Source: Desulfuromonadales bacterium
GTDB taxonomy: Bacteria; Desulfobacterota; Desulfuromonadia; Desulfuromonadales; JACZKF01
Reading direction: 5' to 3'
DNA length: 32,006 nucleotides
NCBI GenBank assembly: GCA_029289095.1
Contig: JARFUG010000034.1
Coordinates: forward strand, 1 to 32,006
Below, one piece after another: positions 12,129 through 29,723 of the stretch. The position numbers and the translations under genes were made by a program. Position 1 is the first letter of the stretch. Each line of letters starts with the position of its first letter. The notes beneath the pieces were generated by a model. The model saw only the letters and a program-made list of their open reading frames with translations. It did not search any database and was not told the origin of the DNA.

Positions 12129-13759
12129 AGATACATGACGTAACGCCCAACGATCTTCCCTGGAAGATCCGCTACGACGCAAGTCGCTGTACGCTATGCG
12201 GTTCGTGTACGGCGGCCTGTTCTTTCAGGGCCATCGCACCAAAAGTCGAGCGCCGGCGCATGGTCTTCTCCGAAGGGGACTTTCCGGAGCCGAAGCAGCG
12301 GTTTTCCGCCGTTCCGGTGATTCGCCAGGTCAACTCGGTGACGAACTACTGCCGCGGATGCGGCATCTGCGAAAAGGTCTGTCCCAACGACGCCATCGCC
12401 CCGGTGCGAAATGTCGACACGCGGCATCCTCTTGTCGTGCGCTGTCTGGCGGGTGACTCGATCAAGCGCGGCGGGCGCAAGAACCTCGAGGCGACGGTGC
12501 GCACTCTCGACAAGCTGAGGGTGGGCCGTATCTCCCAGATGACCGACCCGAGCCTCGACGCCCAGCGCCACACCTTCGACCTGCTTTCCCCCTTCGGCCG
12601 CATTCTTCCTGCGGGAAAACTGCCGCTGAAAGTCAACGCTGAGGGGAAACTCGTTCCGGATGGGCAGGCCCCCCCGGTGAGGTGGATCTATCCGGTCATC
12701 ATCGGCGATATGTCGATCGGCGCCCTTTCCTGGCGCATGTGGGAGGGGGTCGCCATGGCGACCGCCTATCTCAACGAGGAGTGCGGACTGCCGGTGCGCA
12801 TGTGTTCCGGTGAAGGTGGCGTCCCGGTGCGCCTTCTCAAGAGCCGTTTTTTGAAGTACATGATCCTTCAGATCGCCTCGGGCCACTTCGGCTGGAACCG
12901 TATCGTCAAGGCGATGCCGCACATGGTCGAAGACCCTGCCGGAGTTCTCATAAAGATCGGCCAGGGCGCCAAGCCCGGCGACGGGGGACTTCTCATGGCG
13001 CAGAAAGTGGCCGAACACATCCAGGCGATCCGTGGGGTCCCCAAGGCGGACCTCCTGTCGCCCCCGAATCACCAGGGGCTCTACTCCATCGAAGAGAGCG
13101 TGCAGAAAATGTTCCTCTCTTTCAATGCCGCTTTCAAGTTCCGCGTCCCGGTGGCGATCAAGGTTGCGGCCTCCTCGACCAGCGTGTCGGTTTTCAACAA
13201 TCTGGTGCGTGACCCCTACAACATCGTCGGCGGCTTCTTCGTCGACGGCATCGATGGCGGCACCGGCGCCGCCCACGAGGTCAGCCTTGACCACACGGGA
13301 CACCCGATCGTCAGCAAATTGCGTGACTGCTACCTGGCCGCGGTGGCGCAAGGGCGCCAGGGGCAGATTCCCCTTTGGGCCGGTGGCGGGCTGGGGCGCA
13401 CCGGAGATTTGGCGGCCGACGCCTTCAAGATGATCTGCCTGGGGGCCAGCGGCGTTTTCACCGGACGTCTGATTCTGCAGATGGCCGGCTGCGTCGGAAA
13501 CGACATGGGGCGCTGCAACGCATGCAATACCGGCCTTTGCCCGGCCGGCATCACCACCCAGGAGCCGGCCCTTGCGCATCGCCTCGATCCGGAGAAGGTG
13601 GCGCAGAACATCGTCAACTACTTTCTTGCGATGGATCAGGAGTTCAAGAAGCTCATGGCTCCCATCGGCAACAGCGCACTGCCCGTGGGACGCTCCGACG
13701 CCCTCGTCTCCACCGATCGGGGCGTGGCGGAGAGGCTGCAGATACAGTATGTATGCTAA
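12116..13759 (+). CDS. Glutamate synthase, ferredoxin-FMN synthase subunit
   Basis: A 547-residue protein with the glutamate-forming centre. The N-terminal 100 residues hold two [4Fe-4S] ferredoxin motifs (C25, C28, C31, C35 and C79, C82, C85, C89). The rest is the FMN-binding TIM-barrel of GltB: VIIGDMSIGALSWRMWEGVAMA, VLIKIGQGAKPGDGG, FFVDGIDGGTGAAHE and IPLWAGGGLGRTGDLAADA are family landmarks, and RCNACNTGLCPAGITTQ supplies the 3Fe-4S-type cysteines. It converts 2-oxoglutarate and ammonia to glutamate using electrons from the partner chain. ATG 12116 sits five bases after GGAGGTG; a second ATG at 12125 forms an ATGA with the previous stop. The fused N-terminal ferredoxin is typical of archaeal-type glutamate synthases. 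Confidence 0.92.
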   Translation: METMKIHDVTPNDLPWKIRYDASRCTLCGSCTAACSFRAIAPKVERRRMVFSEGDFPEPKQRFSAVPVIRQVNSVTNYCRGCGICEKVCPNDAIAPVRNVDTRHPLVVRCLAGDSIKRGGRKNLEATVRTLDKLRVGRISQMTDPSLDAQRHTFDLLSPFGRILPAGKLPLKVNAEGKLVPDGQAPPVRWIYPVIIGDMSIGALSWRMWEGVAMATAYLNEECGLPVRMCSGEGGVPVRLLKSRFLKYMILQIASGHFGWNRIVKAMPHMVEDPAGVLIKIGQGAKPGDGGLLMAQKVAEHIQAIRGVPKADLLSPPNHQGLYSIEESVQKMFLSFNAAFKFRVPVAIKVAASSTSVSVFNNLVRDPYNIVGGFFVDGIDGGTGAAHEVSLDHTGHPIVSKLRDCYLAAVAQGRQGQIPLWAGGGLGRTGDLAADAFKMICLGASGVFTGRLILQMAGCVGNDMGRCNACNTGLCPAGITTQEPALAHRLDPEKVAQNIVNYFLAMDQEFKKLMAPIGNSALPVGRSDALVSTDRGVAERLQIQYVC

Positions 13760-13763
13760 GGTC

Positions 13764-13833
13764 GTGAGGATTAAGGAGTAAGGAGTGAGGCGTAAAAGCC
13801 TTTTCTCCTCACTCCTCACCCTTCACTCCTCAC
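13764..13833 (+). repeat. Heptamer repeat tract able to form a hairpin inside the glt operon
   Basis: Left arm units such as ATTAAGG, AGTAAGG, AGTGAGG are mirrored by CTCCTCA, CTCCTCA and CCCTTCA units on the right. GGAGTGAGG (13782-13790) pairs exactly with CCTCACTCC (13807-13815). The tract fills nearly the whole spacer between the second and third glutamate synthase genes and ends just before the AGGAG ribosome-binding site. It shares GGAGTGAGG and a GCGTAA motif with 4742-4785. Confidence 0.6.
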
Positions 13834-13845
13834 AGGAGTTTTTCT

Positions 13846-16161
13846 ATGCCCGCGAATATCATCGGTTTTGACGAAAACAAGAAGCGGATTTCGACGCAGC
13901 AACTGCTGCAGCAGATCTATGCGGCGCTGGAGAACGGGGAGACCGAGTTCGAGGTCTTCTCCTCCGGCCATCACGACATCGGCGGCCCGCTGTGGACCGG
14001 CGACGGCAAACCGCTGCGCTTTCGGGTGAAGAACCCGGGGCAGCGGGTCGGCTCCTTCGGCCTCGACGGCACGGAGATCGTCGTTGAGGGCTCGGCTCCC
14101 GCCGACGCCGGATGGCTCAATGCCGGCGCCACGCTCACCATCCTCGGCGACGGCGGCGACACCACCGCGCACTGCGCCGCCAGCGGCAAGATCTATGTCG
14201 CCGGGCGCGTCGGCGCCCGCTCGGGGTCGCTGATGAAGCGCGACCCCGCTTATGATCCTCCCGAATTGTGGGTTCTCAAGAACACCGGCTCCTTCTCCTT
14301 CGAGTTCATGGGGGGAGGGATCGCGGTTGTGTGCGGAATCGGCTGCGAAACGCAGGAGTCGGTCCTCGGCGATCGCTCCTGCGTCGGGATGGTCGGTGGG
14401 ACGATCTACGTGCGCGGCCCCGTGCAGGGGCTCTCCGAAGAGGTCTGGCTCCTCGATCTCGATGAGGCCGACCGGGAGTTTCTCGCGTCGGGTCTCCCTG
14501 TCTTTCTCGAAAAGATCGGTCGCACCCATCTGCTCGGGCAACTCATCGATCCAGGGCAATGGAAGAAGATCGTCGCCAAGACCTACGAGGAGCGAAAAGG
14601 GCATCACCGCATCACCATGCGGGAGTTCCGCCTCGGCAAGTGGGTCGCCGGCGGCATCTTCGGCGAACTGGTGAACGACGACTATGGGCATGTGGCCGGA
14701 CTCGTCAACGCCGGAGCGGACCGTCTCAAGATCCCCCGCTGGATCGACAAGCGCTATGCCGCCCCTTGCGAATCGTCGTGTCCCAGCGCCATCCCGACCC
14801 AGGACCGTATCAAGCTCCTGCGGCAGGGAAAGGTGAGAGAGGCGCTCGAGCTTGTCCTTCAATATTCCCCCTTTCCGGGCTCGGTCTGCGGCGAGGTCTG
14901 TCCCAACCTCTGCATGGACGCCTGCACCCGACAGTACATCGACAAGCCGGTGGGAATGAAGGAACTCGGACGGCTTTCCACCGATATCGCGGCTCCCCCC
15001 GCACTCCCCCCCAGCGGAAAGCGCGTTGCGGTCATCGGCGGAGGACCGGGTGGGCTCTCCGCGGCCTGGCAGCTTCGTCTGATGGGTCACGAAGTCGTCG
15101 TCTATGAGGCCGACGTCGAGGTCGGCGGCAAGCTGCGCCAGGTTATTCCGGGGGAACGCCTGCCGCAAAACGTTCTCTCCGCCGAGATTGATCGCATCAG
15201 GTCCCTCGGCGTGACGATCCGCACCGGCGTCCATGTCGATGCATCCCTCTTCGGGACGATCCGCAACGAAAGCGACGCCGTCGTCATCGCCAGCGGCGCC
15301 CACAATCCCGTCGTCATCCCTTTCCCGGGGCACGAGCGGCTCGTCAAGGGACTCGACTTCCTCAAGGAGGTCAATGCCGGCAAGCGGCCGTCCGTCGGAG
15401 AGAAGGTGGTGGTGATCGGGGCCGGCAACGCCGCCATGGACGTCTGTCTCGGCGCCTACGCCATGGGAGCGAAGAAAGTCACGGCCATCGACATTCAGCG
15501 CCCCGCGGCGTTCAAGCACGAGATCGACCACGTCAAAGCCCTTGGCGGCGAGATCCTCTGGCCCGTCTTTACGCACAAGGTCGATGAAAAGGGGCTGCAC
15601 ACCAAGGACGGGCGCCTTCTGGAGGCCGATACCGTCATCATCGCCATCGGCGAGCGTCCCGATCTTTCCTATGTCCCCCGGGAGTGGCTCACCGACCGCG
15701 GGATGATCGACGTCGAGGAGACGCGACAGGTCGTCCGCGCTCAGGATATCTTCGCCATCGGCGACGCCGTGGCGCCGGGTCTTCTCACCCACGCCATCGG
15801 CGCAGGGCGGGAGGTCGCCGAGAACATCGACGTCTTCCTCGCCGGCGGCGCTCCGGTAGCGAAGAAAAAGCCCCAGGTCATTCCCCAGAGCTGCCTCTCC
15901 AAGGAGCTCTTCCGCCCGCAGAACCGGGGGCGCTTCTGCGTCACGGATGCCAAGGGGGAATCGAACCGCTGCATCTCCTGCGGCACCTGCCGCGACTGCT
16001 CCATGTGTCTCGAAGCGTGCCCGGAGGGGGCGATCCGCCGCGTGGACAAGGAAAACGGCGGCTACGAGTATGTCTCCGAAGATCACCTCTGCATCGGATG
16101 CGGCATCTGCGCCGGCATCTGCCCCTGCGGGATCTGGGCGATGGAGCTGAATGTGGGGTAA
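13846..16161 (+). CDS. Glutamate synthase GXGXG domain fused to GltD-like oxidoreductase and ferredoxin
   Basis: A 771-residue three-part fusion. Residues 1 to about 250 form the GltB C-terminal beta-helix with its glycine repeats (DTTAHCAASGKIYVAGRVGARSG, FMGGGIAVVCG). Residues about 300-660 form a GltD-type module: cysteine-rich CESSCPSAIPTQDRI and CGEVCPNLCMDACTR, then two dinucleotide folds, VAVIGGGPGGLSAAWQL (FAD) and VVVIGAGNAAMDVCL (NAD(P)H), and DIFAIGDAVAPGLLTHAIGAGR. The C-terminal 80 residues are a ferredoxin with CISCGTCRDCSMC and CIGCGICAGICPCGIW. The protein would pass electrons from NAD(P)H, or ferredoxin, to the FMN subunit. AGGAG lies seven bases before ATG 13846. It ends the operon, followed by a strong terminator. 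The missing separate gltA/gltD genes are explained by the fusion. Confidence 0.9.
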   Translation: MPANIIGFDENKKRISTQQLLQQIYAALENGETEFEVFSSGHHDIGGPLWTGDGKPLRFRVKNPGQRVGSFGLDGTEIVVEGSAPADAGWLNAGATLTILGDGGDTTAHCAASGKIYVAGRVGARSGSLMKRDPAYDPPELWVLKNTGSFSFEFMGGGIAVVCGIGCETQESVLGDRSCVGMVGGTIYVRGPVQGLSEEVWLLDLDEADREFLASGLPVFLEKIGRTHLLGQLIDPGQWKKIVAKTYEERKGHHRITMREFRLGKWVAGGIFGELVNDDYGHVAGLVNAGADRLKIPRWIDKRYAAPCESSCPSAIPTQDRIKLLRQGKVREALELVLQYSPFPGSVCGEVCPNLCMDACTRQYIDKPVGMKELGRLSTDIAAPPALPPSGKRVAVIGGGPGGLSAAWQLRLMGHEVVVYEADVEVGGKLRQVIPGERLPQNVLSAEIDRIRSLGVTIRTGVHVDASLFGTIRNESDAVVIASGAHNPVVIPFPGHERLVKGLDFLKEVNAGKRPSVGEKVVVIGAGNAAMDVCLGAYAMGAKKVTAIDIQRPAAFKHEIDHVKALGGEILWPVFTHKVDEKGLHTKDGRLLEADTVIIAIGERPDLSYVPREWLTDRGMIDVEETRQVVRAQDIFAIGDAVAPGLLTHAIGAGREVAENIDVFLAGGAPVAKKKPQVIPQSCLSKELFRPQNRGRFCVTDAKGESNRCISCGTCRDCSMCLEACPEGAIRRVDKENGGYEYVSEDHLCIGCGICAGICPCGIWAMELNVG

Positions 16162-16176
16162 ACGATTATGAAGAAC

Positions 16177-16210
16177 AAAGGGCGGGGCCGCATGGGTCCC
16201 GCCCTTTTTT
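16177..16210 (+). terminator. Rho-independent terminator of the glutamate synthase operon
   Basis: AAAGGGCGGG (16177-16186) pairs perfectly with CCCGCCCTTT (16198-16207) around an 11-base loop, running straight into a T run ending at 16210. Confidence 0.92.
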
Positions 16211-16220
16211 AATCCTTTCG

Positions 16221-16249
16221 TTGACAATTCTCCCCTCGCGTTCTATGGT
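16221..16249 (+). promoter_or_regulatory. Sigma-70-type promoter for the 16382 gene
   Basis: TTGACA (16221) and TATGGT (16244) are separated by exactly 17 bp, right after the glt terminator. The start site would lie near 16256, about 125 nt before the next ATG. Confidence 0.55.
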
Positions 16250-18520: not shown

Positions 18521-19528
18521 ATGACCGGGTTCCTGCGACTTGCGCCGTTTTCGGGAAAGCTCCGCCTGCCGTTTATTTCCAGGAGCGGTTCCCGACTCCG
18601 ACGCCTCCGACATGCATTCTGCATTTTATTCATCTTCGTTTTCTCCCTTGTCGGCCTCAGCCACGGGTGGGCGGAAAGCAGGGTGGCCGTTCTCTACCCA
18701 AACGTTCAAGAGCCCTATCTTTCGATTTTCCAGAATATTCTCAATGGAGTTCAGAGTGAGCTGGGCCGGGCGAGGGTGCGTCCGGTGGCGGTTTCCGAGA
18801 ATATCGAGCCGGATGCCCTGAGGAGTCTGCTTCGCGAGGAGCGGATCGATGTCGTCATCGCCCTTGGCAGGCAGGGTTTTCTGGCGGCACAACGTGCCGG
18901 CGAGCCGTTGCCTTTGCCGGTCGTGGTCGGGGCTCTTCCGATCGTGCCCGGCGGCTTTTCCGGGATCAGTCTCTCGCCGGACCCGGATCTGCTCTTCAGG
19001 CAGCTTGGCGAACTGGCGCCTTCGGTCAAACGAGTCCACGTCGTCTACAGCGAGGGGAACGACTGGTTGATTCAGCGAGCCCAAACTTCCGCCCGATCCC
19101 GCGGGCTCCAACTCTCCGCCTACCGGGTCGGTGACCTGCGCGAAGCGGTTCGCCAATATCGCGACCTGACCCAGGGAAACCTTGGGCGCTCCGAGGCGAT
19201 CTGGTTGCCGCTGGATACCGTCACGTCCGATGACGACGTCATCCTTCCGATGTTGTTGAGAGCCGCTTGGGACAACAAGTTCGTCCTCTTTTCAAGTAAA
19301 CCCTCGCACGCCCAGCGGGGCGCTCTTTTTTCGATGTATCCGAATCACTTCGCGCTGGGTCGCAATCTTGGAGCGATGGCCTCCAGTTTCGGCAATCCCC
19401 ATGCCGAGCTGGCCGTTCCCCTTTCGGATCTTCATGTGGCCGTGAACGTGCGGACGGCAGCCCACCTGGGGTTGCGGTTTACCCCGCGGCAGCAGGAAAG
19501 ATTCGATCTGGTCTTTCCATCACGTTGA
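18521..19528 (+). CDS. Orphan ABC-type periplasmic substrate-binding protein
   Basis: A 335-residue protein of the uncharacterised ABC-transporter substrate-binding group (ABC_sub_bind, PF04392-like). An Arg-rich N-terminus leads into a hydrophobic core (FCILFIFVFSLVGLSHGWA), a likely signal peptide cleaved after WAES or nearby. The mature part alternates strands and helices: RVAVLYPNVQEPYLSIFQNILNGV, IDVVIALGRQGFLAAQ, VKRVHVVYSEGNDWLIQRA and NKFVLFSSKPSHAQRGALFSMYPN, which is the two-lobe periplasmic fold with a YPN end typical of the group. No permease or ATPase is nearby. Ten bases after its stop comes a histidine kinase with a periplasmic domain, so it may present a ligand to the kinase instead of to a transporter. 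The start has no strong ribosome-binding site. Confidence 0.75.
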   Translation: MTGFLRLAPFSGKLRLPFISRSGSRLRRLRHAFCILFIFVFSLVGLSHGWAESRVAVLYPNVQEPYLSIFQNILNGVQSELGRARVRPVAVSENIEPDALRSLLREERIDVVIALGRQGFLAAQRAGEPLPLPVVVGALPIVPGGFSGISLSPDPDLLFRQLGELAPSVKRVHVVYSEGNDWLIQRAQTSARSRGLQLSAYRVGDLREAVRQYRDLTQGNLGRSEAIWLPLDTVTSDDDVILPMLLRAAWDNKFVLFSSKPSHAQRGALFSMYPNHFALGRNLGAMASSFGNPHAELAVPLSDLHVAVNVRTAAHLGLRFTPRQQERFDLVFPSR

Positions 19529-19537
19529 GGCGGCACA

Positions 19538-21253
19538 ATGGAATCCTCACCAGGATCGACATTGAAATCGACGATGAGTTTCCGGGCGCGTCTGCTTGCC
19601 ATCGTGACGGTGGGTATTCTCTGTCTTGCGCTGACCGCCGCACTGACCACCGCATGGATGGCGGGCAAGCAGGCCAGAGCCCAGATGGTCGCGCAGGCCC
19701 TGCAGATCACCGGTAGTCTGGCCGACCAGAGTGTTCTTGCCCTGTTGTACGGGAGCCAGGAGAATGCCGAAAAGCCTTTGCAGACCATCCTGAGTTTTCC
19801 CGGGGTCGATCTTGCCGGCATATTCGATTCGGACGCCCGGCCCCTCCTCGTTCTCGGGGGAGGAAGGGAGGGCAGAGCCGCCGTGCCTGGGGAGGCCTAT
19901 TCCTCAAAAGGTCCTTTGCTGGTGCGCGAAACGACTCTGGACTGGTACTTCTGGGCGCCGGTCTTCTCCGGCTCACCCGCCCAGCGCGACCCGGCCGCGG
20001 AGTTGTTCGAACTGGAGCCCGCCCGGCAGGAACTTCTCGGCCATGTCCATGTCGTGATGAACAAAACGGCCCTGCGCGACATCCAGCTCAACATTCTCTA
20101 CAACAATCTCTGGATCGGCCTGGCGTTTGCCCTGGTGCTCGTGGTCATCCTGAATTTCGGCATATCGCGTCTGACCCGCCCCCTTTACCAGCTTTCAGAA
20201 ATAATGAAGAAAGCTGAGCGCGGGGAAACGCACGTCCATGCCGATCTCGAGGGCCCCCGGGAGATCACTCATATGGCAGGGGTCTTCAACCGGATGATGG
20301 AGAGCATCGAAGAGCGGGACCGGGGTCTGAGACGCCACCGGGCGCTTCTGCAATCCGAGGTGGCGATACGCACTCAGGAGCTCGTCCAGGCGCGCGATGC
20401 CGCCCTGACGGCCAACCGGCTCAAGTCCGAGTTTCTCGCAAATATGAGTCACGAACTGCGCACTCCGCTTCAGGCGATCATCGGCTACTCCGATGTGATC
20501 AAGGAGGAGTTGGAGGCAGAGGGGATGGCCGAGAACGCGCGCGACCTCGGGAGAGTCATCTATAACGCCAAGCGCCTTCTTTCGCTCATAAACAACATTC
20601 TCGGCCTGGCCAAAATTGAAGCCGGGCGAATGGAGCTACGTCTGCAATCCGTAGATCTGCGCGAACTGATCAGGGAGTCATTCGATACGGTCGGACCGAT
20701 CCTGCGCGCGAACAACAACACTTTCGATTTTGTACTGCTGGGAGAGCACACCCTCGAGATCGACAGGGAAAAGCTGCTGCAGACACTTCTGAATCTGCTG
20801 AGCAATGCTGGGAAATTTACCCGTGACGGCACGATTGTTCTCGAACTCCTCCATGAGAGTCATCTGCTTACCGTCAAAGTCAGCGATAACGGCATCGGTC
20901 TGACGAACGAGCAGCAGCAAATCATCTTCGAAGCTTTTCGGCAGGTCGATGGAAGCGCGACGCGAAAGTTCGAGGGGACCGGACTCGGACTGGCGATCAC
21001 GAAGCGATTCTGCGAGTTGATGGGGGGCAGCATCGGAGTCGAGAGCGAAGCCGGTCGCGGTTCGACCTTCACCGTGCGCATTCCCTTGCCGGTTTCAGCG
21101 GCGCTCGATGATCCGAGCGCCTCGCTTGAGAAATCGGCGCCCCAGCGTACGATCACCCCACCGGAACTCGATGACGCCGAAGCGCATGGACCGCAGTTTT
21201 CGAAGGTTTGGTTGATCGATACAAATGATGTTCTTATCAAGGAGGAGACATGA
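19538..21253 (+). CDS. Membrane-bound sensor histidine kinase
   Basis: A 571-residue kinase: transmembrane helix around 20-42, a periplasmic sensor of about 145 residues (its SLADQSVLALLYGSQENAEKPL stretch resembles CHASE8-type domains), a second helix near 190-212, HAMP (ISRLTRPLYQLSEIMKKAERGE), a coiled coil, then HisKA with NMSHELRTP (phospho-His at 305), N box LLNLLSNAGKF, G1 VSDNGIGL and G2 FEGTGLGLAITK. All catalytic motifs are intact. No receiver domain is attached and no response regulator lies in the operon. The stop overlaps the TonB-receptor start as ATGA (21250-21253). Its upstream neighbour is an orphan substrate-binding protein, a possible ligand donor. The closest receiver-bearing protein is the cyclic-di-GMP enzyme at 26846-29365, a candidate partner only by proximity. 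Confidence 0.92.
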   Translation: MESSPGSTLKSTMSFRARLLAIVTVGILCLALTAALTTAWMAGKQARAQMVAQALQITGSLADQSVLALLYGSQENAEKPLQTILSFPGVDLAGIFDSDARPLLVLGGGREGRAAVPGEAYSSKGPLLVRETTLDWYFWAPVFSGSPAQRDPAAELFELEPARQELLGHVHVVMNKTALRDIQLNILYNNLWIGLAFALVLVVILNFGISRLTRPLYQLSEIMKKAERGETHVHADLEGPREITHMAGVFNRMMESIEERDRGLRRHRALLQSEVAIRTQELVQARDAALTANRLKSEFLANMSHELRTPLQAIIGYSDVIKEELEAEGMAENARDLGRVIYNAKRLLSLINNILGLAKIEAGRMELRLQSVDLRELIRESFDTVGPILRANNNTFDFVLLGEHTLEIDREKLLQTLLNLLSNAGKFTRDGTIVLELLHESHLLTVKVSDNGIGLTNEQQQIIFEAFRQVDGSATRKFEGTGLGLAITKRFCELMGGSIGVESEAGRGSTFTVRIPLPVSAALDDPSASLEKSAPQRTITPPELDDAEAHGPQFSKVWLIDTNDVLIKEET

Positions 21254-23406
21254 AGGGCGCCCGGCTGCTGTGGCTCTATCTGGCGGCTGCCCTGGTTTTT
21301 ACAGGGGGGGCAGGGGCAGAGGATTTTGATGCGGACCCATGGGGAAGCCGGGATTTGGCGGATCTCTATGGCGATGCACAGTTTGTCAGCATCGCCACCG
21401 GCAGCAGAAAGCCGATTTACAAGGCGCCGGCGGTGGCGACGGTTATCACCGCCGAGGAGATCAAGGCGATGGGAGCGAGGGACTTGAACGAGGTGCTCGA
21501 GACGGTTCCCGGGCTGCATGTGTCGCTGTCGCCCCTGAGCAGGCTGGACTCGGTCTATTCCATCCGGGGGATTCACACGGGGTTCAATCCGCATGTGCTT
21601 CTTCTCAGAAATGGCGTCCCATTTCCGTACGTCTTTTCAGGAGGCCGGCCGAATCTTTTTCGTCTGCCGGTCGCCTCCATTGCGCGAATCGAAGTCATCC
21701 GCGGCCCCGGATCCGCTGTATATGGCGCCGACGCTTTTGCCGGAGTCATCAATGTCATTACCAAGGAATCGGACGATATCCGAGGAACCGAAGCGGGGGG
21801 CCGAGTCGGCTCCTTCGACACCCATGACCTGTGGTTGCTGCATGGAGGGAGCTGGGGTCCATGGGATATCGCCTTCTCTCTGGAATGGCAGGAAAGCGCC
21901 GGAGATAGAAGTCGGCGAATCGATGCGGACTTCCAATCGTTCCTGGATGGCACGATGGGAACGACGGCTTCCCGGGCCCCTGGCCCACTGAGCACCCGCT
22001 ATGAAGTCCTCGATTCACATTTGGAAATCAGGCGCGGCGATCTGAGACTTCGTAACTGGTATTGGCGGTTGAGCGACGCCGGGCAGGGGACCGGGGGCGC
22101 CCAGGCGCTCGATCCCGAAGGCCGCGAAAACGTGGAGCAGTATCTTGTTGACCTGGCCTACGCCACAACTCTTCGTCCCAGTTGGGATCTGAATGCCGTC
22201 GCCAGCTATCTGTATCGCGACACCCGCAGCCGCTTTGTCCTCCTGCCACCCGGGACGAGAGCGCCCATCGGCCCTGACGGCAATATCGATTTCGATTCGC
22301 CTGCCGAAGTCCTTTTCCCGGACGGACTCCTCGGCAACCCGGGCGCCCGCGAACATCAGACCGGCATGGATCTGGTTTTCCTCTATACCGGCCATCGGAA
22401 CAATCGCCTGCGCCTTGGGGCGGGCATCAGATATTTCACCTTTCGGCCTAGCGAGTCCAAAAATTTCGGCCCCGGAGTGATCGACGGAAGCGTTTCGCCG
22501 ATCGACGGCGCCCTCACGGACCTTTCGGGAACGCCGTTTATTTTCAGCCCTGACAGATCACGCACCCTTTACTATCTGCTCGTGCAGGACGAATGGCAGA
22601 TATTGCCCGACTGGGAACTGACCGCCGGTATACGCTACGATCATTACTCCGATTTCGGCGAGACCATCAATCCCCGGCTGGCGCTCGTCTGGGCCACTCG
22701 CTACAACCTGACGACAAAACTTCTCTATGGGCGGGCTTTCCGGGCGCCCTCCTTTTCAGAGCTCTTTGCTGTCAATAATCCGGTTGTCCTCGGCAATCCC
22801 GATCTGAAGCCGGAGACGATCGACACCCTCGAACTGGCCTTCGATTACAGGCCGACCTTCAACCTCCAGACTGTCGTGAGTTTTTTCGTCTACGAGGCGG
22901 ATAATCTGATTGAATTCGTCGGCGGAGCCACGAGGACGGCTCAAAATGCCCGTGATCAACAGGGCTATGGATTCGAGGTCGAAGCAGACTGGAAGGTGCG
23001 AGCTGATCTGCGACTGCTGGGCAATTATTCTTTCCAAAGGTCCAGAGACAAGGCGACCAAAGAACGTATCCCCGAGGCTCCTGGGCAGCAAGCCTATCTT
23101 CGGGCCGAATGGCAGTTTCACCCCGGATTCTTCCTGACTCCCCAAGTCCTGTGGGTAGGGGACAGGAGGCGCAGTCCCGTGGACCCGCGCGCACAGATCG
23201 ATGACTACACCATGGTGCACCTGACACTGCGGGCCACAAACCTTGCCGCGAATTGGGAGTTTGCCTTGTCCGGGCGCAACATCTTCAATGTGGATGCGCG
23301 GGAGCCGAGCAGCGGCCCGGAGGCGCCGGTTTTGCCGATCAGTATCCCCGGCGATTACCCCCTGGAGGGACGCAGTCTCCTGGGGGAAGTCAGATACAGC
23401 TTCTGA
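21250..23406 (+). CDS. TonB-dependent outer-membrane receptor
   Basis: A 718-residue receptor. A signal peptide (LLWLYLAAALVFTGGAGAE) is followed by a TonB-box-like QFVSIATGSRK, the plug domain (APAVATVITAEEIKAMGARDLNEVLETVPGLHV, YSIRGI, IARIEVIRGPGSAVYGADAFAGVINVITK) and a beta-barrel with alternating aromatic strands, including TAGIRYDHYSDFGETINPRLALVW, LLYGRAFRAPSFSELF and NPDLKPETIDTLELAFDY. The last residue is Phe (RYSF), the sorting signal for the outer-membrane assembly machinery. It imports a ligand with energy from TonB-ExbBD; none of those genes is in the window. The ligand is unknown: the pattern fits the siderophore/vitamin B12/organic-compound class in general. It overlaps the kinase gene and is followed after 8 bp by citrate-synthase-like genes. 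Confidence 0.95.
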   Translation: MKGARLLWLYLAAALVFTGGAGAEDFDADPWGSRDLADLYGDAQFVSIATGSRKPIYKAPAVATVITAEEIKAMGARDLNEVLETVPGLHVSLSPLSRLDSVYSIRGIHTGFNPHVLLLRNGVPFPYVFSGGRPNLFRLPVASIARIEVIRGPGSAVYGADAFAGVINVITKESDDIRGTEAGGRVGSFDTHDLWLLHGGSWGPWDIAFSLEWQESAGDRSRRIDADFQSFLDGTMGTTASRAPGPLSTRYEVLDSHLEIRRGDLRLRNWYWRLSDAGQGTGGAQALDPEGRENVEQYLVDLAYATTLRPSWDLNAVASYLYRDTRSRFVLLPPGTRAPIGPDGNIDFDSPAEVLFPDGLLGNPGAREHQTGMDLVFLYTGHRNNRLRLGAGIRYFTFRPSESKNFGPGVIDGSVSPIDGALTDLSGTPFIFSPDRSRTLYYLLVQDEWQILPDWELTAGIRYDHYSDFGETINPRLALVWATRYNLTTKLLYGRAFRAPSFSELFAVNNPVVLGNPDLKPETIDTLELAFDYRPTFNLQTVVSFFVYEADNLIEFVGGATRTAQNARDQQGYGFEVEADWKVRADLRLLGNYSFQRSRDKATKERIPEAPGQQAYLRAEWQFHPGFFLTPQVLWVGDRRRSPVDPRAQIDDYTMVHLTLRATNLAANWEFALSGRNIFNVDAREPSSGPEAPVLPISIPGDYPLEGRSLLGEVRYSF

Positions 23407-23414
23407 GAGGAACA

Positions 23415-24221
23415 ATGAAAAGGCGAGTGGAAAGACGTAGCGAAGCGTTTGCCCTGCGGACGGTCACCCGCATCTGGGAGGAGCAGGCATCGGAGGAAAA
23501 TCCATACCTCGCGGATTCATGCCGCTGTTACGGGTATGATCTGCTCGACCTCATGGAGAAACGGACGTTGGTGGAAGTCTTGTTTCTGCTCCTTCGCGGC
23601 GAATTGCCCAGTGCACAGGAAGCACGGCTTCTTGAAAGCCTGATGATCGCCCTGATCAATCCGGGGCCCCGCCATCCCGCGACGCGCGCCGCCATGATCG
23701 CCGGAGTAGGCAAAACCGATCCCGCGCATATTCTCCCGATCTCTTTGGGTATTCTCGGAGGATCCCACCTTGGCGCCGACAGCATCGAAGGAGCGATTCG
23801 TTTTCTGAGAAAGCATATGAAAAGTGATCCGGGATCGGTGGCCTGCCAGGTCATGGAAACCAATCAGCGCCCAAAAGAAGGGGACTGGCATCCGGTTCCG
23901 GGTTTCGGCAGCAGATTCGGCAGCATCGATTCGTATTCACGTGAGATCGCCGATCGTCTGCTTTCTCTGGTCGATTCAGCCAAGGCGCTTTCCTGGGGGA
24001 ATGCTTTTGCCGATGAACTGAGAATATACCAATTGGGATGGCTCCCGACAGGAATCGCCGCTGCCGTTTTTTCGGACCTCGGTTTCCATCCCAGGGCAGG
24101 TGCAGGACTTTTTCAGTTAATCAGTGCGCCGGGGCTTCTGGCGCACGGTTTGGAACAGGCCAACAAGCCGCTGACCTCCCTGCCGTTCCCTTCGGACGAG
24201 GAGTACATTCTTGAAAAATAA
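23415..24221 (+). CDS. Citrate-synthase-fold protein 1, partly degenerate active site
   Basis: A 268-residue homologue of citrate synthase and citryl-CoA lyase, shorter than the usual 370-430. The recognisable stretch is GYDLLDLMEKRTLVEVLFLLLRGELPSAQEA near the start, then NPGPRHPATRAAMIAGVGKTDPAH and LGILGGSHLGADSIEGA. By eye, His118 in GGSHLGAD lines up with the first catalytic His (GPLHGGAN type), while GFGSRFG has Ser166 in place of the second His (GFGHR), and the Asp of the NVDFYSG motif is replaced in the LGWLPTG segment. Canonical citrate synthesis is thus unlikely from this chain alone. It may pair with the next gene as a heteromer. ATG 23415 follows GAGAGGAA; the end overlaps gene 2 by 11 bp. 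Function unassigned. Confidence 0.7.
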   Translation: MKRRVERRSEAFALRTVTRIWEEQASEENPYLADSCRCYGYDLLDLMEKRTLVEVLFLLLRGELPSAQEARLLESLMIALINPGPRHPATRAAMIAGVGKTDPAHILPISLGILGGSHLGADSIEGAIRFLRKHMKSDPGSVACQVMETNQRPKEGDWHPVPGFGSRFGSIDSYSREIADRLLSLVDSAKALSWGNAFADELRIYQLGWLPTGIAAAVFSDLGFHPRAGAGLFQLISAPGLLAHGLEQANKPLTSLPFPSDEEYILEK

Positions 24222-25053
24222 AAAAGAAACAGACGTTTTCCAGCTTTGGGACGAGCACCGCGGGAAGATTCGCAGTCGCAAAGGGGGATGGCTGATCGGA
24301 AAGGGAGTCTTATGCCACGGCTATGACATGATGGAGGACCTTGTCGGCAAATATTCCTATTTCCAGGTTCTGATTCTGAATGCCACCGGAAGAATGGTGG
24401 AGAAGCGCGTGGCCGACTGGTTTGAGGCAATCTATATTTGTCTCAGTTGGCCCGATCCCCGGATCTGGTGCAACCGGGTCGGCGCATTGGGCGGCACAAT
24501 GCGATCTTCCCCGGTAGCGGCGACAGTGGCAGGTATCCTGGCGGGTGATTCCAAGGCCTATGGACAAAAACCCCTCGTCGAGGGGCTCAATTTTATTCAA
24601 AGTGCCTTGGCTGAAAAGAAAAAGGGGCTCTCAACCAGGGATATCGTCGCAGCCGAATGCAGCCGACATGGAGGCAAGCCTCAGATCATGGGATATGCGC
24701 GCCCGATCGCCAAGGGCGACGAGCGTATTGTGGCAATGGAGAAGGTTGCCGGCGATCTCGGTTTCCCTGTGGGAGAGCATTTGGAGCTTGCCTATGAGAT
24801 TGAACGGGTTCTTGCTGAAGAGTTCGATGAAAGCATGAACATCAACGGCTACATGTCCGCGTTTCTTTCCGATCAGGGATTTACGCCGCAGGAGGTCTAC
24901 AGGATCTGTGCAATTCTGGTGGCAAGCGGGGTCACGGCTTGCTACATCGATGCTTTCGAGCGGCCGCCAGAGACTTTCCTCCCCTTGCGTTGCGAAGACA
25001 TGGAGTACCAGGGGCCCCCGCCCCGTGAAGTGCCTCCGCGAGAAAAGAGCTAG
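24211..25053 (+). CDS. Citrate-synthase-fold protein 2, catalytic residues absent
   Basis: A 280-residue second homologue, starting at TTG 24211 inside the end of protein 1, with no better start downstream. Family-like parts are GYDMMEDLVGKYSYFQVLILNATGR, then NRVGALGGTMRSSPVAATVAGIL, MGYARPIAKGDERIVAMEKVA and SMNINGYMSAFLSDQGFTPQEVYRICAILVASG. By eye the first His position falls in AGDSKAYG (no His), the second in GYARP with Arg164, and the catalytic Asp position in NINGYMSA with Asn or Gly. All three canonical residues are therefore missing. A structural or regulatory partner of protein 1, or a lyase/ligase with a new mechanism, would fit. The Pro-rich tail (GPPPREVPPREKS) is probably flexible. 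It ends 12 bp from the convergent TPP-enzyme gene. Confidence 0.65.
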   Translation: MKNKKETDVFQLWDEHRGKIRSRKGGWLIGKGVLCHGYDMMEDLVGKYSYFQVLILNATGRMVEKRVADWFEAIYICLSWPDPRIWCNRVGALGGTMRSSPVAATVAGILAGDSKAYGQKPLVEGLNFIQSALAEKKKGLSTRDIVAAECSRHGGKPQIMGYARPIAKGDERIVAMEKVAGDLGFPVGEHLELAYEIERVLAEEFDESMNINGYMSAFLSDQGFTPQEVYRICAILVASGVTACYIDAFERPPETFLPLRCEDMEYQGPPPREVPPREKS

Positions 25054-25065
25054 AGCTTTTCGGTC

Positions 25066-26829
25066 CTACCGTCCCAGAGTCTTCATCCGCGCCCCCATGG
25101 GCGGCACCTCTTCCGGATCGATGTGAATGTTGAGGAGCGTCGGTCCGGGGCGCCGGCAGATCTCGGCGAAATCGAGCTTCTCCAAGTCCTGAAACGTCCG
25201 AACGGTCTCTCCCCTGGCCCCCATCGCCCGGGCCATTAGAGAGAAGTCGACGGGGGGCAGATCGTGGGCGACGGGCTCTCCTCCTCCCAGACGTTGCCCG
25301 TGCTTGACCATGCCGAGCGCCTGGTCGTTGAGCACAACGAAGATCACCGGCAGCTTCTCCACAACCGCCACTGTAATCTCCTGACTCCCCATCAGAAAAC
25401 TGCCGTCTCCGGTCAGGCATACGACCGGTTTGCCGGGGCATCCCATGGCCGTGCCGACGGCGGCGCCGATCCCCCAGGCCATCGATCCGAACCCCATCCC
25501 GACCCGGTAGAGTCCGCTGCTTCGCGCAAAGAGGTAATGCGTCGCCCAGGCCCAACTGTTGCCGGCGTCGACGATGAAGCGCGTGGTCTCCGGGAAACGT
25601 TTGGCCAACTCTCCCATCAGGCGCTGCGGCTTTATGGGGAGCGCATCGGTGAGGAGCTTTTCCGGGTGGTTCAGGGTGATCTGCGCAGGTGTATTTGCAG
25701 GCGATCTTCCTGCCCTGCCCGGCCATTCGACAAGACCGTTTGGCGGCCGCGGCTGCCTCGTGCGGTCGAGCAGATTGCGGAAGATAGCGCTCATTCTCCC
25801 ACAGACGTGAAGCCGTCCCCACGGAGAGCCGGTGAAGTGCACCGGTGATTCGTCAATATGGATCAGCCTGCGCCGTAGCGCGACATCGCTTTCCCCTGCG
25901 TTGAACGCCAGATCGCCCAGACGGACGCCTGCGGCGATGATCAGATCGATGCGCTCGTCCTTGAGGACCGCCCCGGCACTGGCATGGCCGGCGAACCCGA
26001 CAACTCCCATGTATTGAGGATGATAGGGGTTGATCCACCTCTTTCCGGAGGGACAACTGACGATCGGCGCGCCGACCCGTTCGGCGAATTCAATCACCTC
26101 GCGAATCCCCTCTCCGCAACCTGACCCGATGATCAGGGCGATGCGGCCGGCTTTCTCGATCTCTCCATGCAGACGTTCCAGGGCCTGCAGGTCCGTCAGG
26201 AACTGGTTTTCGAGAAAAGCGCTGAGAGGAGGAGGCGCCGGCGCGTCCTCTCTGGCGTGCAGGCGGCGGGGTTCGCACAGGATATCCATCGGAATGCTGA
26301 GATGGGCCGGGCCGCACGGCGGCCCCTGGGTCGCCAGGATGGCGGCGGCGAGCTTTCTCTCGAGCTGCTCGCGGTGCGAAACGAGGCTGCTGTAACGGGT
26401 GCACGAATGAAACATCGCCACGGTGTTGACGGCGGTGCAGGAGGATTCCTGCAGCACCCTCTTGCCGAAGGTGTGCAGAGCCGTCTGGGCGGTGATCACG
26501 AGCAGGGGGATGTGGTCGGCGAATGCGGAGGCGACACCCGTGATCAGGTTGGTGGCGCCGGGGCCGGTGGTGGAACAGCAGACGCCGAGTTTTCCGGTCT
26601 CTCGGGCGTATCCGTCGGCCATGAAGGCCGCACCCGCTTCGTGGCGTGCCAGAATGGGCCGGAGCCCGCCCCGGCGGGCACTGCGGGCCATGGCATCGTA
26701 GAGCGGTTCGATGGAGCCGCCGGGTACGCCGAAAATGAATTCCACCCCCATCCGCTCGAGATGCTCAATGAGCAGATCCCCCAGCTCGGGGCGTTTGGCT
26801 TCCCCCTCCACTCTTTGAGCTTTGTCCAT
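25066..26829 (-). CDS. Acetolactate-synthase-like thiamine diphosphate enzyme
   Basis: A 587-residue enzyme of the ThDP family related to the acetolactate synthase large subunit. The N-terminal domain has GVEFIFGVPGGSIEPLYDAM and LARHEAGAAFMADGYARETG, with the catalytic Glu in HEAG, then TTGPGATNLITGVASAFAD. The middle domain has a nucleotide-like fold and the C-terminal ThDP/Mg site is GDGSFLMGSQEITVAVVEKLPVIFVVLND. The usual reaction is decarboxylation of pyruvate or a related 2-oxo acid and transfer of the C2 unit. Length fits IlvB, but no small regulatory subunit gene is nearby, so a catabolic or specialised role is equally possible. ATG 26829 has AGGAG eight bases upstream; the longer GTG start is less likely. 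It starts 16 bp after the cyclic-di-GMP gene, so the two are probably one transcript. Confidence 0.85.
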   Translation of the reverse strand: MDKAQRVEGEAKRPELGDLLIEHLERMGVEFIFGVPGGSIEPLYDAMARSARRGGLRPILARHEAGAAFMADGYARETGKLGVCCSTTGPGATNLITGVASAFADHIPLLVITAQTALHTFGKRVLQESSCTAVNTVAMFHSCTRYSSLVSHREQLERKLAAAILATQGPPCGPAHLSIPMDILCEPRRLHAREDAPAPPPLSAFLENQFLTDLQALERLHGEIEKAGRIALIIGSGCGEGIREVIEFAERVGAPIVSCPSGKRWINPYHPQYMGVVGFAGHASAGAVLKDERIDLIIAAGVRLGDLAFNAGESDVALRRRLIHIDESPVHFTGSPWGRLHVCGRMSAIFRNLLDRTRQPRPPNGLVEWPGRAGRSPANTPAQITLNHPEKLLTDALPIKPQRLMGELAKRFPETTRFIVDAGNSWAWATHYLFARSSGLYRVGMGFGSMAWGIGAAVGTAMGCPGKPVVCLTGDGSFLMGSQEITVAVVEKLPVIFVVLNDQALGMVKHGQRLGGGEPVAHDLPPVDFSLMARAMGARGETVRTFQDLEKLDFAEICRRPGPTLLNIHIDPEEVPPMGARMKTLGR

Positions 26830-26845
26830 GCAAAGAGCTCCTGAA

Positions 26846-29365
26846 TTATTTGAAAATGCCCGCTTCGATTTCACCCGTCCTGACAGCAGAAGGAAACAAC
26901 TCCTCGATGGGCAGAGGACGGCCTATTTGATAACCTTGGGCAAAGTCGATCCCCATGTCCCTGACCAGCCCCAACACTTTTTCATTTTCGACGAATTCTG
27001 CGACCGTCAGTTTTCCCAAGGCTCTTGCGACCTCGGCCATGGAGCGCACCAGGGCCTGGTCGACGGGATTGCGGTCGAGCTGGACGATGAAGCTGCCGTC
27101 GATTTTGATGAATCGGGCAGGAAATTCCTTCAGGTACCCGAAGGTGCTGAATCCGGTGCCGAAGTCGTCGACGGCAAAATCGCAGCCGAGTTCGTTGAGC
27201 TGCCGGACCATCTGCTGCGTCGCGCCGATATTGGACATGCCGGCGCTTTCGGTGAGCTCGAAAATGATACGCTGAGGTTCAACTCCGGAATTCCCGAGTT
27301 GCTCCTCGATCAGCGGGACGAGCGCTGCATCCCGAAACGCCTGCGCCGAAAGGTTGATGGCGGCTCTCTTCAGTTCGGGGTACTGCTTGAGCAGGGCTAT
27401 CGTTTTCTTGATGACCCAATGGTCCAGAGAGGGCATTTCGCCGGCGCTCTCCAGCGCGGAGATGAACTCCCCAGGGTAGATGATCCCTCGCTCGGGCAGA
27501 TGCATGCGCACCAGCGCTTCGTAATGGCCGATTTCACCTGTGTCGACATGTATGATCGGCTGAAAATGGAGCAGCAGCCGCTCTTCGTCCATGGCCTGTC
27601 GAAGGCGTCTGATCCAGTCGACGCTGATGCGCAGGTCGTCGCTTTCCCGGTCTTCGGGATCGTATTGATGGATTCGGTTTCGTCCTCTGCGCTTGGCAAC
27701 ATACAGAGCGATGTCGGCCTGTTTCAGGTATTCCTCGGGGCTGGCGGCCTGACCCGTGATCTGGCTGATGCCGATGCTGCAGCAGAGATTGACCTGCTGA
27801 CCACCGACATGGCTTTGGAAATTCTGGATAAGTCTGCAGATCTCTTCGGCGACTTTTCTGTCCTGTCCCGGCTCTGTGTTGACGAGCAGAACGGCGAATT
27901 CGTCACCCCCGATTCGGCAGAGAATGTCCGATTGGCGGAGCCTGGAAGCCAGAAGAGCCGCAATCTGGCGAAGCACGGCATCGCCGTAAGGATGGCCGAA
28001 CGAGTCGTTCACCACCTTGAAATGGTCGAGGTCAATGTAGAGAAGGGAATGTCTTCCCTTACCCCGGGCGCTGATTGCGGCCATTTGCCGAAGGGCTCCG
28101 TCGAAGTAATGCCGATTGTAGAGTCCTGTCATGTTGTCGTGCAGGGCCAGAAACTCGAGCTGGGTCTGCGCCTTTTTGCGCTCGGTGATATTGTCCAGGC
28201 ACCCGAAGATAGTCAGTTCCTCATCTGAGATGAGAGCATCGAGCTGACATTCGATCCACAGGTTCTGCTCCTGTTTGTTGTTCAGGCGGATTTCGAAACG
28301 ACATTCGTGCACCGCCTCGGAGATCAAGGCGTCCAGGCGGCTCTCCCATACGTGGCGCCCACCGTCTCCGTCGAGGGGGATAAAGGAGGCGAGTGTTCTG
28401 TCCAGAGACTCGAGCTGAGAGAATCCGGTGAGTCGACTCCAGGCCCGGTTTACGAACCGGATGCGCCCTTGTCTGTCGAGTTCCAGGACGACCGTGCTCA
28501 ACGTGTCCAGAATGCGCTGATGGCTTTCCGATATCTTACGGAATGCGTCCGTGCTTTGCTGGAGCGACTGCAGCCGGCTGGCGAATTGGGCATTGCTCAC
28601 CATGTAGTCTTCACGACGCACAGCGAGTTCGCACACCCTCCGCAACTGCTCGATTCGAAATGGCTTGGAGACAAAATCGGCGGCCCCCTTCAACATGAGG
28701 TCCTCGGCGACGTCCACCGTGCAACGGGCGGTCATGATGACAACAGGCTGATCGGGGTTCAGTTGGAGGATTTCATGCAGGATCTCGGGGCCGGACAGGG
28801 TGGGGAGCATCACGTCGAGCAGCACCAGTTCATGCCGCAGTTTCTTCCATTTCTCAAGCCCTTCCAGACCGTCAGACGCGACGTCGACTTCGAAACGCTG
28901 GCGAAGGACCCGGCTGGCCACAAGAGCCGTATCGGCATCGTCTTCAATGATCAGAACACGCGGGTTGCGAAACGCCTCGGCGGCAGAGCCGATGCAGTTG
29001 CGGATCGCCTCGGGGAGGTGATGACGGTCCTCGAGGGGCAGGAGCCTGTTGATGCCGAACTCCCGGGCGGTCGTCTCTGCGATGCGTTCGCACCAGATCT
29101 TCGCCACGGCGATGATCGGAATCTCCTTCTTGCATCTGAAGACTCCGGATCGAACGAGGCGAGCCAGGCGCCAGCCATCGAGGCCGGCTATTTCGATATC
29201 GGTGATGATCAGGTCGATGGACCTGGAGCGCAGGGCCTGAAAAGCGGAAAGGGCGCTGGATGCCTCTGAGATCGAGACGAAGCCGGCATCCGACAACGTC
29301 TTCTGCAAAAGAGCGCGTGTATTCGAGTGGCTGTTGACAAGAAGAATGTGAATGTCGCTCGACAT
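26846..29365 (-). CDS. REC-REC-PAS-GGDEF-EAL cyclic-di-GMP protein
   Basis: An 839-residue multidomain regulator. REC1 (5-120) lacks the acidic pair (VNSHSN instead of DD) and the conserved Lys, though D56 remains, so it is probably not phosphorylated normally. REC2 (135-240) is intact: EDD at 141-143, phospho-acceptor D184, K234. A PAS domain (about 280-400) follows, with FVNRAWSRLTGFS. The diguanylate cyclase domain has GGDEF (486-490) and an RxxD inhibitory site (477-480) five residues before it. The EAL domain keeps EAL (616-618), NLSAQ, FELTES, DDFGTG, KIDG and AEFVEN, so phosphodiesterase activity is expected too. It can thus make and break cyclic di-GMP, switched by phosphorylation and PAS ligand. 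ATG 29365 with AAGGAG upstream is the natural start. Confidence 0.95.
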   Translation of the reverse strand: MSSDIHILLVNSHSNTRALLQKTLSDAGFVSISEASSALSAFQALRSRSIDLIITDIEIAGLDGWRLARLVRSGVFRCKKEIPIIAVAKIWCERIAETTAREFGINRLLPLEDRHHLPEAIRNCIGSAAEAFRNPRVLIIEDDADTALVASRVLRQRFEVDVASDGLEGLEKWKKLRHELVLLDVMLPTLSGPEILHEILQLNPDQPVVIMTARCTVDVAEDLMLKGAADFVSKPFRIEQLRRVCELAVRREDYMVSNAQFASRLQSLQQSTDAFRKISESHQRILDTLSTVVLELDRQGRIRFVNRAWSRLTGFSQLESLDRTLASFIPLDGDGGRHVWESRLDALISEAVHECRFEIRLNNKQEQNLWIECQLDALISDEELTIFGCLDNITERKKAQTQLEFLALHDNMTGLYNRHYFDGALRQMAAISARGKGRHSLLYIDLDHFKVVNDSFGHPYGDAVLRQIAALLASRLRQSDILCRIGGDEFAVLLVNTEPGQDRKVAEEICRLIQNFQSHVGGQQVNLCCSIGISQITGQAASPEEYLKQADIALYVAKRRGRNRIHQYDPEDRESDDLRISVDWIRRLRQAMDEERLLLHFQPIIHVDTGEIGHYEALVRMHLPERGIIYPGEFISALESAGEMPSLDHWVIKKTIALLKQYPELKRAAINLSAQAFRDAALVPLIEEQLGNSGVEPQRIIFELTESAGMSNIGATQQMVRQLNELGCDFAVDDFGTGFSTFGYLKEFPARFIKIDGSFIVQLDRNPVDQALVRSMAEVARALGKLTVAEFVENEKVLGLVRDMGIDFAQGYQIGRPLPIEELFPSAVRTGEIEAGIFK

Positions 29366-29723
29366 GAACGAGCACTCCTTTGCAGGTATCTGATTGAAAT
29401 CGTTATGATTCGACCTGTGAATGTCGGCCGGAAATTGTGGCGTAAATCGGGATTTTCGCTTCTGTTTTCGCCCCTTGCGCCCTGCAGCCTTCGCAAACTT
29501 AATATCCTTAATGATCTCTGTCAAGGTTTACCAGTGAGCACCCGGCCGAGCGTAAATCCGCACGGCTCGAAACCGGACGGTAGGATAGTGATTTCACTGT
29601 GGTAGACTAGACACGGTTCTTATCACCTTTTTTGCTGGCTCTCATTTCGATCCCGAGAACGAGAGGGGGCATCGTGGAGGTGAAAAAATCCCGATTTGCT
29701 GATATTGACCAAAGGGGAAAAAA
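29366..29723. other. Divergent intergenic region, 358 bp
   Basis: This stretch between the divergent cyclic-di-GMP gene and the DUF2760 gene encodes nothing convincing. It must hold both promoters. One dyad, AGTGA-TT-TCACT, lies at 29587-29598. No clear -35/-10 pair or terminator was identified. Confidence 0.5.

Follow-up and report, generated by a model that had tools for sequence, protein, structure and literature searches.

Paired citryl-CoA lyase-fold proteins that lack the catalytic triad are co-inherited with a ThDP-dependent enzyme and a TonB receptor module

Introduction

The citrate synthase fold belongs to a textbook enzyme family. What, then, is the function of two proteins of this fold that are encoded side by side and have lost most of the canonical catalytic residues? 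The question is raised by a gene pair in a 32,006-nucleotide stretch of DNA from a Desulfuromonadales bacterium (contig JARFUG010000034.1), referred to here as the window. A sequence-only reading of the locus had left two options for the pair, a heteromeric enzyme with a new reaction or a sensor of CoA or organic acids derived from the fold. The two proteins are designated P1 and P2 here.

Results

P1 and P2 resemble citryl-CoA lyase

As had been read from the DNA, the two genes are adjacent and overlap, by 11 bp. P1 occupies positions 23415..24221 of the + strand (268 aa, ATG start) and P2 positions 24211..25053 of the same strand (280 aa, TTG start). The two proteins share 22% identity. Both match NCBIfam models of citryl-CoA lyase (CCL; 2.4e-23 for P1, 5.6e-16 for P2) at scores far below the curated cut-offs (82.6 bits versus 261 for P1, 58.6 versus 212 for P2), and both also match the PDB entry 6hxp at the sequence level. 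In Pfam, P1 narrowly exceeds the cut-off of 27 for the model PF00285, with 28.6 bits, and P2 gave no match.

Single-chain models were built with AlphaFold2 from alignments of 79 P1 and 82 P2 sequences and reached pLDDT values of 93.7 (P1) and 90.7 (P2). The best PDB match of both models was 6hxp, with Z scores of 22.9 and 21.9, respectively (VIA-align). The lyase module of ATP-citrate lyase (ACLY) scored Z about 20-22, citrate synthases lower, at Z about 14-17. Modeled alone, each chain is thus predicted to have the overall fold of the CCL core module, and we refer to P1 and P2 as putative CCL-fold subunits.

The catalytic triad is lost in both families

The sequence-only reading had assigned to P1 only the first catalytic His (H118), with Ser166 at the position of the second and no Asp, and to P2 none of the three residues. 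Profile-profile alignment (hhalign) to intact CCLs, a sequence-level mapping, agrees on both counts. The His/His/Asp sites are occupied by H118/S166/T212 in P1 and by A116/R164/N212 in P2, where the region of the first His contains a gap whose placement is uncertain by one residue. R164 was placed beside the second His in a first MAFFT alignment and on the His column by hhalign, a one-residue gap ambiguity. Y117 of P2 was considered as a direct replacement of the first His and dropped, MAFFT and hhalign both putting A116 at this site and Y117 next to it. CCLs encoded in the genomes of relatives retain the motifs VHGG, GFGHRF and NIDG, indicating that the alignment frame is sound.

Neither the catalytic Asp nor an ordinary catalytic triad was found in any of the aligned homologues (79 P1, 82 P2). 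H118 is no constant of the P1 family, its column holding His in 52 of 79 sequences and otherwise Tyr, Phe or Arg, and the S166 column holds Ser in just 50 of 79. Invariant residues among the 79 P1 homologues are R86, Q234, P65, G84, L107, P108 and P239. The conserved non-canonical residues that a functional pair had been expected to show are present in P2: Y117, R164-P165, G169-D170-x-R172, N210 and D221 are invariant in 82/82 sequences, and the segment from S79 to N88 is mostly so. The Arg of the CCL segment GRVPG, which we take, by analogy with citrate synthase, to be the substrate arginine, is replaced by Ser in P1 and by Val in P2. Judged from these alignments, loss of the triad is a family trait of P1 and P2.

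Could the pair retain ordinary citrate synthase or CCL activity with odd residues? The shared fold and the NCBIfam CCL matches would allow it. However, the Asp is missing from every aligned P1 and P2, the GRVPG Arg is replaced in both window proteins, and intact CCLs are encoded separately in relatives, beside TctABC-like transport genes. The host genome encodes a full-length canonical citrate synthase elsewhere, hence P1-P2 does not serve as the ordinary citrate synthase of the cell. Retention of the ordinary activity is scarcely credible.

P1 and P2 are inherited as a pair under purifying selection

A scan of 85,000 species' genomes returned 120 relatives of P2. The best 80 of these 120 were taken, so that diversity is under-sampled, and together with five loci from the window's own and related genomes they gave a set of 85. 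The co-occurrence of the pair is strict in this set: 83 of the 85 loci have P1 immediately before P2 in the same orientation, and in the remaining two (L044 and L060) the contig ends there. The hosts span several phyla and include Desulfuromonadales, Gallionellaceae, Thiotrichaceae, Cellvibrionaceae, Colwelliaceae, Desulfobulbaceae (with a cable bacterium), Magnetococcales and a Nitrospirae MAG. Malonomonas rubra and Cellvibrio mixtus are culturable species with the cassette. In the tree, gammaproteobacterial P2 sequences are nested among those of Desulfuromonadales and a Nitrospirae MAG groups with a Myxococcota MAG, a placement that suggests horizontal transfer. One scan for viral carriage turned up no relative, and a search of plasmids gave only distant CCL-like matches of 22-27% identity.

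For close pairs of sequences, dN/dS (omega) lies between 0.05 and 0.13, for P1 and P2 alike. Selection on both proteins is purifying. A chance or misread ORF was rejected in view of the 85 loci and this selection, and pseudogene status in view of the omega values.

A second, distant pair (type II) occurs in another order of the same class, where five loci were examined in full (L138-L142) and a sixth was added (L157). Type II proteins score 95-156 bits against P1 and P2, compared with more than 190 bits within type I. They are likewise devoid of the catalytic triad, and the layout of their loci matches that of type I, with P1-P2, a ThDP enzyme, a TonB receptor, a kinase, a regulator and, as a rule, a periplasmic binding protein. 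In L139 and L157 the pair is also adjoined by a gene for a short-chain dehydrogenase (SDR). In the tree, the two types join chain by chain, P1 to P1 and P2 to P2, which would place the pairing before their split. Both the pairing and the triad loss are probably ancestral, on a tree whose long branches make rooting unsafe.

The pair is embedded in a receptor and signaling cassette

Five genes stand in line on the + strand of the window. They encode a periplasmic binding protein (ABC_sub_bind; 18521..19528; Pfam PF04392, 3.2e-06, with a signal-like N-terminus in the translation), a membrane histidine kinase with Pfam HAMP-HisKA-HATPase domains (19538..21253), a TonB-dependent receptor (Pfam Plug and TonB_dep_Rec_b-barrel; 21250..23406), P1 and P2. 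In this operon-like row, neighboring genes overlap by up to 11 bp or are spaced by up to 9 bp; the kinase gene overlaps the receptor gene by 4 bp, and the receptor gene ends 8 bp before P1. Convergent to P2, the - strand carries the gene of a ThDP-dependent carboligase of the acetolactate synthase / ScyA / BbmA-CsmA superfamily (25066..26874) and, directly upstream of it, that of a response regulator with Pfam REC-REC-PAS-GGDEF-EAL domains (26846..29524). No permease or ATPase gene was found next to the binding protein gene in the window. Antisense ORFs opposite the real genes of the window had no Pfam match and were set aside. At 12116-16161 the window also encodes a glutamate-synthase-like split module, an Fe-S and Glu_synthase protein followed by a GXGXG / pyridine nucleotide oxidoreductase / ferredoxin protein. 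The long antisense ORFs opposite this module (e.g. 13816-16227, - strand) have no Pfam match either and are probably spurious.

The neighborhood is conserved. Of the 51 loci in which the pair is flanked by 6.5 kb or more on either side, 44 have a ThDP gene nearby and 47 a TonB receptor gene (it is absent nearby in the other 4). The regulator is nearby in 37 of them, the kinase in 32. Some loci have YfiR-like or other periplasmic proteins in place of the ABC_sub_bind protein, and the periplasmic sensing part seems exchangeable. A YfiR/HmsC-like protein is encoded near the pair in six loci (e.g. L035 5096-5719), and phosphonate-binding-like proteins in others.

The enzymatic company of the pair

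The product of the ThDP gene contains TPP N, M and C domains (Pfam), and its translation shows the segment RHEAGAAF, with the Glu in RHE, and the cofactor motif GDGSF...VVLND. Its closest PDB relatives are BbmA (4e-86) and CsmA (6e-76), to which NCBIfam adds relatives of ScyA. With 307 bits versus a cut-off of 538, the enzyme remains under the equivalog level of biosynthetic acetolactate synthase (TIGR00118). Free-standing ThDP enzymes 46-49% identical to that of the cassette are encoded in genomes that lack the pair (L145 8610-10349, L146 2863-4569 and L147 8872-10590) and carry a variant motif, PGxPLGPLFDAL, near the N-terminus.

In 19 loci, P2 has an SDR gene in its neighborhood. In a Cellvibrio MAG, P2 and the SDR form a single reading frame of 530 aa (L079 7983-9572), either a fusion or the result of a lost stop codon. 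Genes for O-methyltransferases and sulfotransferases recur beside pairs, in 3-4 loci each.

The ThDP enzyme is co-inherited with the pair

Co-inheritance was analyzed in a survey of 146 genomes of the class, of which 12 have a type I P2 and 134 do not. A ThDP ortholog (E<1e-200) is present in 11 of the 12 and in 0 of the 134. In the twelfth genome (G137) the locus lies on a contig of 4.7 kb, and tblastn on the same sequence (L029) shows the end of a ThDP gene running off its edge. Type II pairs occur in six genomes, and the type II ThDP enzyme is found in these six only; six further genomes that have just the receptor do not carry it. The genomes share ancestry, so that Fisher statistics overstate the significance of this co-occurrence; the pattern is repeated in types I and II. 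Where the ThDP gene is not adjacent to the pair, it was located elsewhere in 10 of 11 genomes, the Cellvibrio copy adjoining the regulator; in one pair-bearing genome, G160, no ThDP gene was found. In three gammaproteobacterial MAGs, decayed ThDP remnants lie directly before P1 (L035 6241-7122, L040 6942-7161 and L056 6317-7161), and an intact, more diverged ThDP copy is encoded elsewhere, unlinked.

These data bear on a non-enzymatic role, in which P1-P2 would be a CoA/organic-acid sensor or a scaffold, for instance an allosteric partner of the ThDP enzyme. Loss of the triad in both chains and the variable pocket of P1 would suit such a role, and the citrate synthase homology domain of human ACLY has been proposed to act allosterically (PMC10115795). 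However, the invariant polar set of P2 (Y117, R164, D170, R172 and N210) argues against it, the P2-SDR frame and the ThDP linkage point to a pathway, and in the three genomes with a decayed remnant by the pair the sole intact ThDP enzyme found is an unlinked one. We consider a purely non-enzymatic pair very unlikely. Since the cassette has its own binding protein, histidine kinase and c-di-GMP regulator, a sensor is not favored as the sole role of the pair. Of the two options first offered, the heteromeric enzyme with a new reaction is favored, on the grounds of the ThDP co-occurrence, the frequent SDR beside P2, in one locus as a single P2-SDR reading frame, and the invariant polar set of P2.

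Enzymes and receptor are separable

Every pair-bearing genome of the class has the receptor (type I 12/12, type II 6/6), and several genomes have the receptor only. TonB receptors of at least 55% identity were found in 13 of the 146 genomes, namely the 12 with type I P2 and G052. A lone TonB receptor 55% identical to that of the cassette is encoded at L150 8688-10772, with no pair, kinase or binding protein alongside. In two genomes of one genus, G042 and G057, the loci align at 80-87% on both flanks, and 3.5 kb with exactly P2, P1 and the ThDP gene is missing from G042, which has kept the receptor, binding protein, kinase and regulator. The interval (L140 9371-12894 versus L151 8519-8639) provides a natural enzyme-free control. 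Receptor and kinase without the enzymes also occur in G066, G107 and G124 (loci L152, L154 and L156).

A pair that in the surveyed class is never without the receptor, and a receptor that is sometimes without the pair, are expected if the enzymes make something that the receptor half takes up. Receptor-only genomes are also compatible with an island of catabolic genes placed next to a sensory module of general use. In such a cassette the TonB receptor would import a scarce organic compound, P1-P2, as a retro-Claisen-like or thioester-handling lyase, would degrade it together with the ThDP enzyme and the SDR, and the kinase and c-di-GMP regulator would steer the cell toward the compound. TonB receptors, ThDP lyases and SDRs are common catabolic parts, CCL itself is a cleaving enzyme, and the separability of enzymes and receptor is compatible with import. 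Against breakdown stand the cassette's lack of a conserved inner-membrane transporter, with a binding protein that has neither permease nor ATPase in the window, and its regulator, a c-di-GMP protein and no transcription factor. The tailoring-type O-methyltransferase and sulfotransferase genes beside some pairs also speak against it, though in few loci. We regard a catabolic cassette as unlikely.

Discussion

We propose that P1 and P2 are obligate subunits of one heteromer derived from citryl-CoA lyase, and that this two-subunit enzyme and the ThDP enzyme make a small metabolite that is taken up and sensed by the receptor module. For this combined reading, in which heteromer, catalysis, direction, product and signaling are all inferred, we see the chances as evenly balanced. 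Both chains would have given up the classical His/His/Asp chemistry. The working pocket would be that of P2, which has acquired a new set of invariant residues and has kept the D-x-R motif, by which proteins of this fold position the carboxylate of the keto acid. P1 would be the required partner, retaining the PGFG loop that holds CoA in the superfamily. The variability of the P1 pocket residues is a point against the model, as are the four well-flanked loci with no TonB gene nearby, the ThDP-negative genome G160 and the loci in which other periplasmic proteins replace the ABC_sub_bind protein. The remodeled pocket of P2 may act on a keto-acid or thioester substrate, and the ThDP enzyme may make or use the same intermediate. 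The pair, the ThDP carboligase and frequently an SDR would then build, or less likely degrade, a small specialized metabolite through C-C bond chemistry that acts on a keto acid and possibly draws on a CoA thioester.

As to direction, three features lead us to prefer the building of a metabolite to its breakdown: the cassette lacks a conserved inner-membrane importer, its output is c-di-GMP and not transcription, and there are lineages with the receptor only. The product would leave the cell and be captured by the TonB receptor of the cassette. In the periplasm it would be read by the binding protein together with the histidine kinase, and the signal would pass to the REC-GGDEF-EAL regulator and change c-di-GMP. 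A bolder version, offered tentatively, is that the cassette represents a new class of small-molecule signaling, in which a triad-less two-subunit enzyme and a ThDP enzyme produce a diffusible molecule that is perceived through TonB receptor, binding protein, kinase and c-di-GMP, and receptor-only relatives are listeners.

In the open-access literature we found no published account of the cassette or of paired CCLs, and searches on BbmA and CsmA gave none either. An ancient, obligately paired and triad-less branch under strong constraint would represent a chemistry or function of the fold absent from the literature we found. Since this branch travels with a ThDP carboligase and a relay from receptor to c-di-GMP, a widespread metabolite may be directly findable. 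The cassette is spread over several phyla, with iron cyclers, magnetotactic cocci, cable bacteria and degraders of polysaccharides among its hosts, and the receptor-only lineages offer natural controls.

Among known systems, the CCL of Hydrogenobacter (6hxp; NCBIfam PRK06224 group) is similar in length (about 270 aa) and in fold over nearly the whole chain (Z 22-23), and P2 has kept its C-terminal YxGxPxR segment. In contrast to CCL, which has both His and the Asp, P1 and P2 have both lost the Asp and the second His, and P2 the first His as well; moreover, two diverged copies are here always encoded together, in a cassette without any other citrate-cleaving component. The CSH module of ATP-citrate lyase shares the fold, but P1 and P2 are two separate small genes with no CoA-ligase part.

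A citrate synthase homologue adjoining a TonB receptor gene is also known from the bolagladins, where BolR supplies what is proposed as the start unit of a product that binds iron (PMC7756342). As a citrate synthase homologue, BolR was assayed on oxaloacetate and acetyl-CoA; it functions alongside an NRPS, and the receptor gene is also present in 52% of genomes without the cluster (PMC7756342). No second subunit, ThDP enzyme or c-di-GMP module is described in the parts of that account available to us (PMC7756342). With this precedent, pair and ThDP enzyme might make a citrate-like chelator whose metal complex is imported by the TonB receptor. The family models that fit the receptor best are those of heme, siderophore and B12 receptors, several of the hosts cycle iron (Gallionellaceae, Geoalkalibacter, Magnetococcales), and a TonB receptor beside biosynthetic genes, as in siderophore systems, is present here if the neighbors are indeed biosynthetic. 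Yet the cassette has no conserved NRPS, NIS synthetase or inner-membrane transporter for siderophores, and P1 and P2 are without the residues for a citrate-type condensation, which makes a metallophore distinctly unlikely.

For the linked ThDP enzyme of the proposed pathway, the nearest PDB and NCBIfam relatives are ScyA, BbmA and CsmA. ScyA joins two aromatic keto acids in scytonemin synthesis; the linked enzyme, however, lies well under the NCBIfam ScyA cut-offs. Finally, the proposed combination of a small dedicated synthase with a kinase and a c-di-GMP regulator resembles the DSF system, in which the RpfF synthase is linked to the RpfC histidine kinase and the RpfG c-di-GMP regulator. The likeness is one of layout only: the DSF system uses other enzyme folds, whereas the P1/P2 cassette includes a TonB receptor and a periplasmic binding protein.
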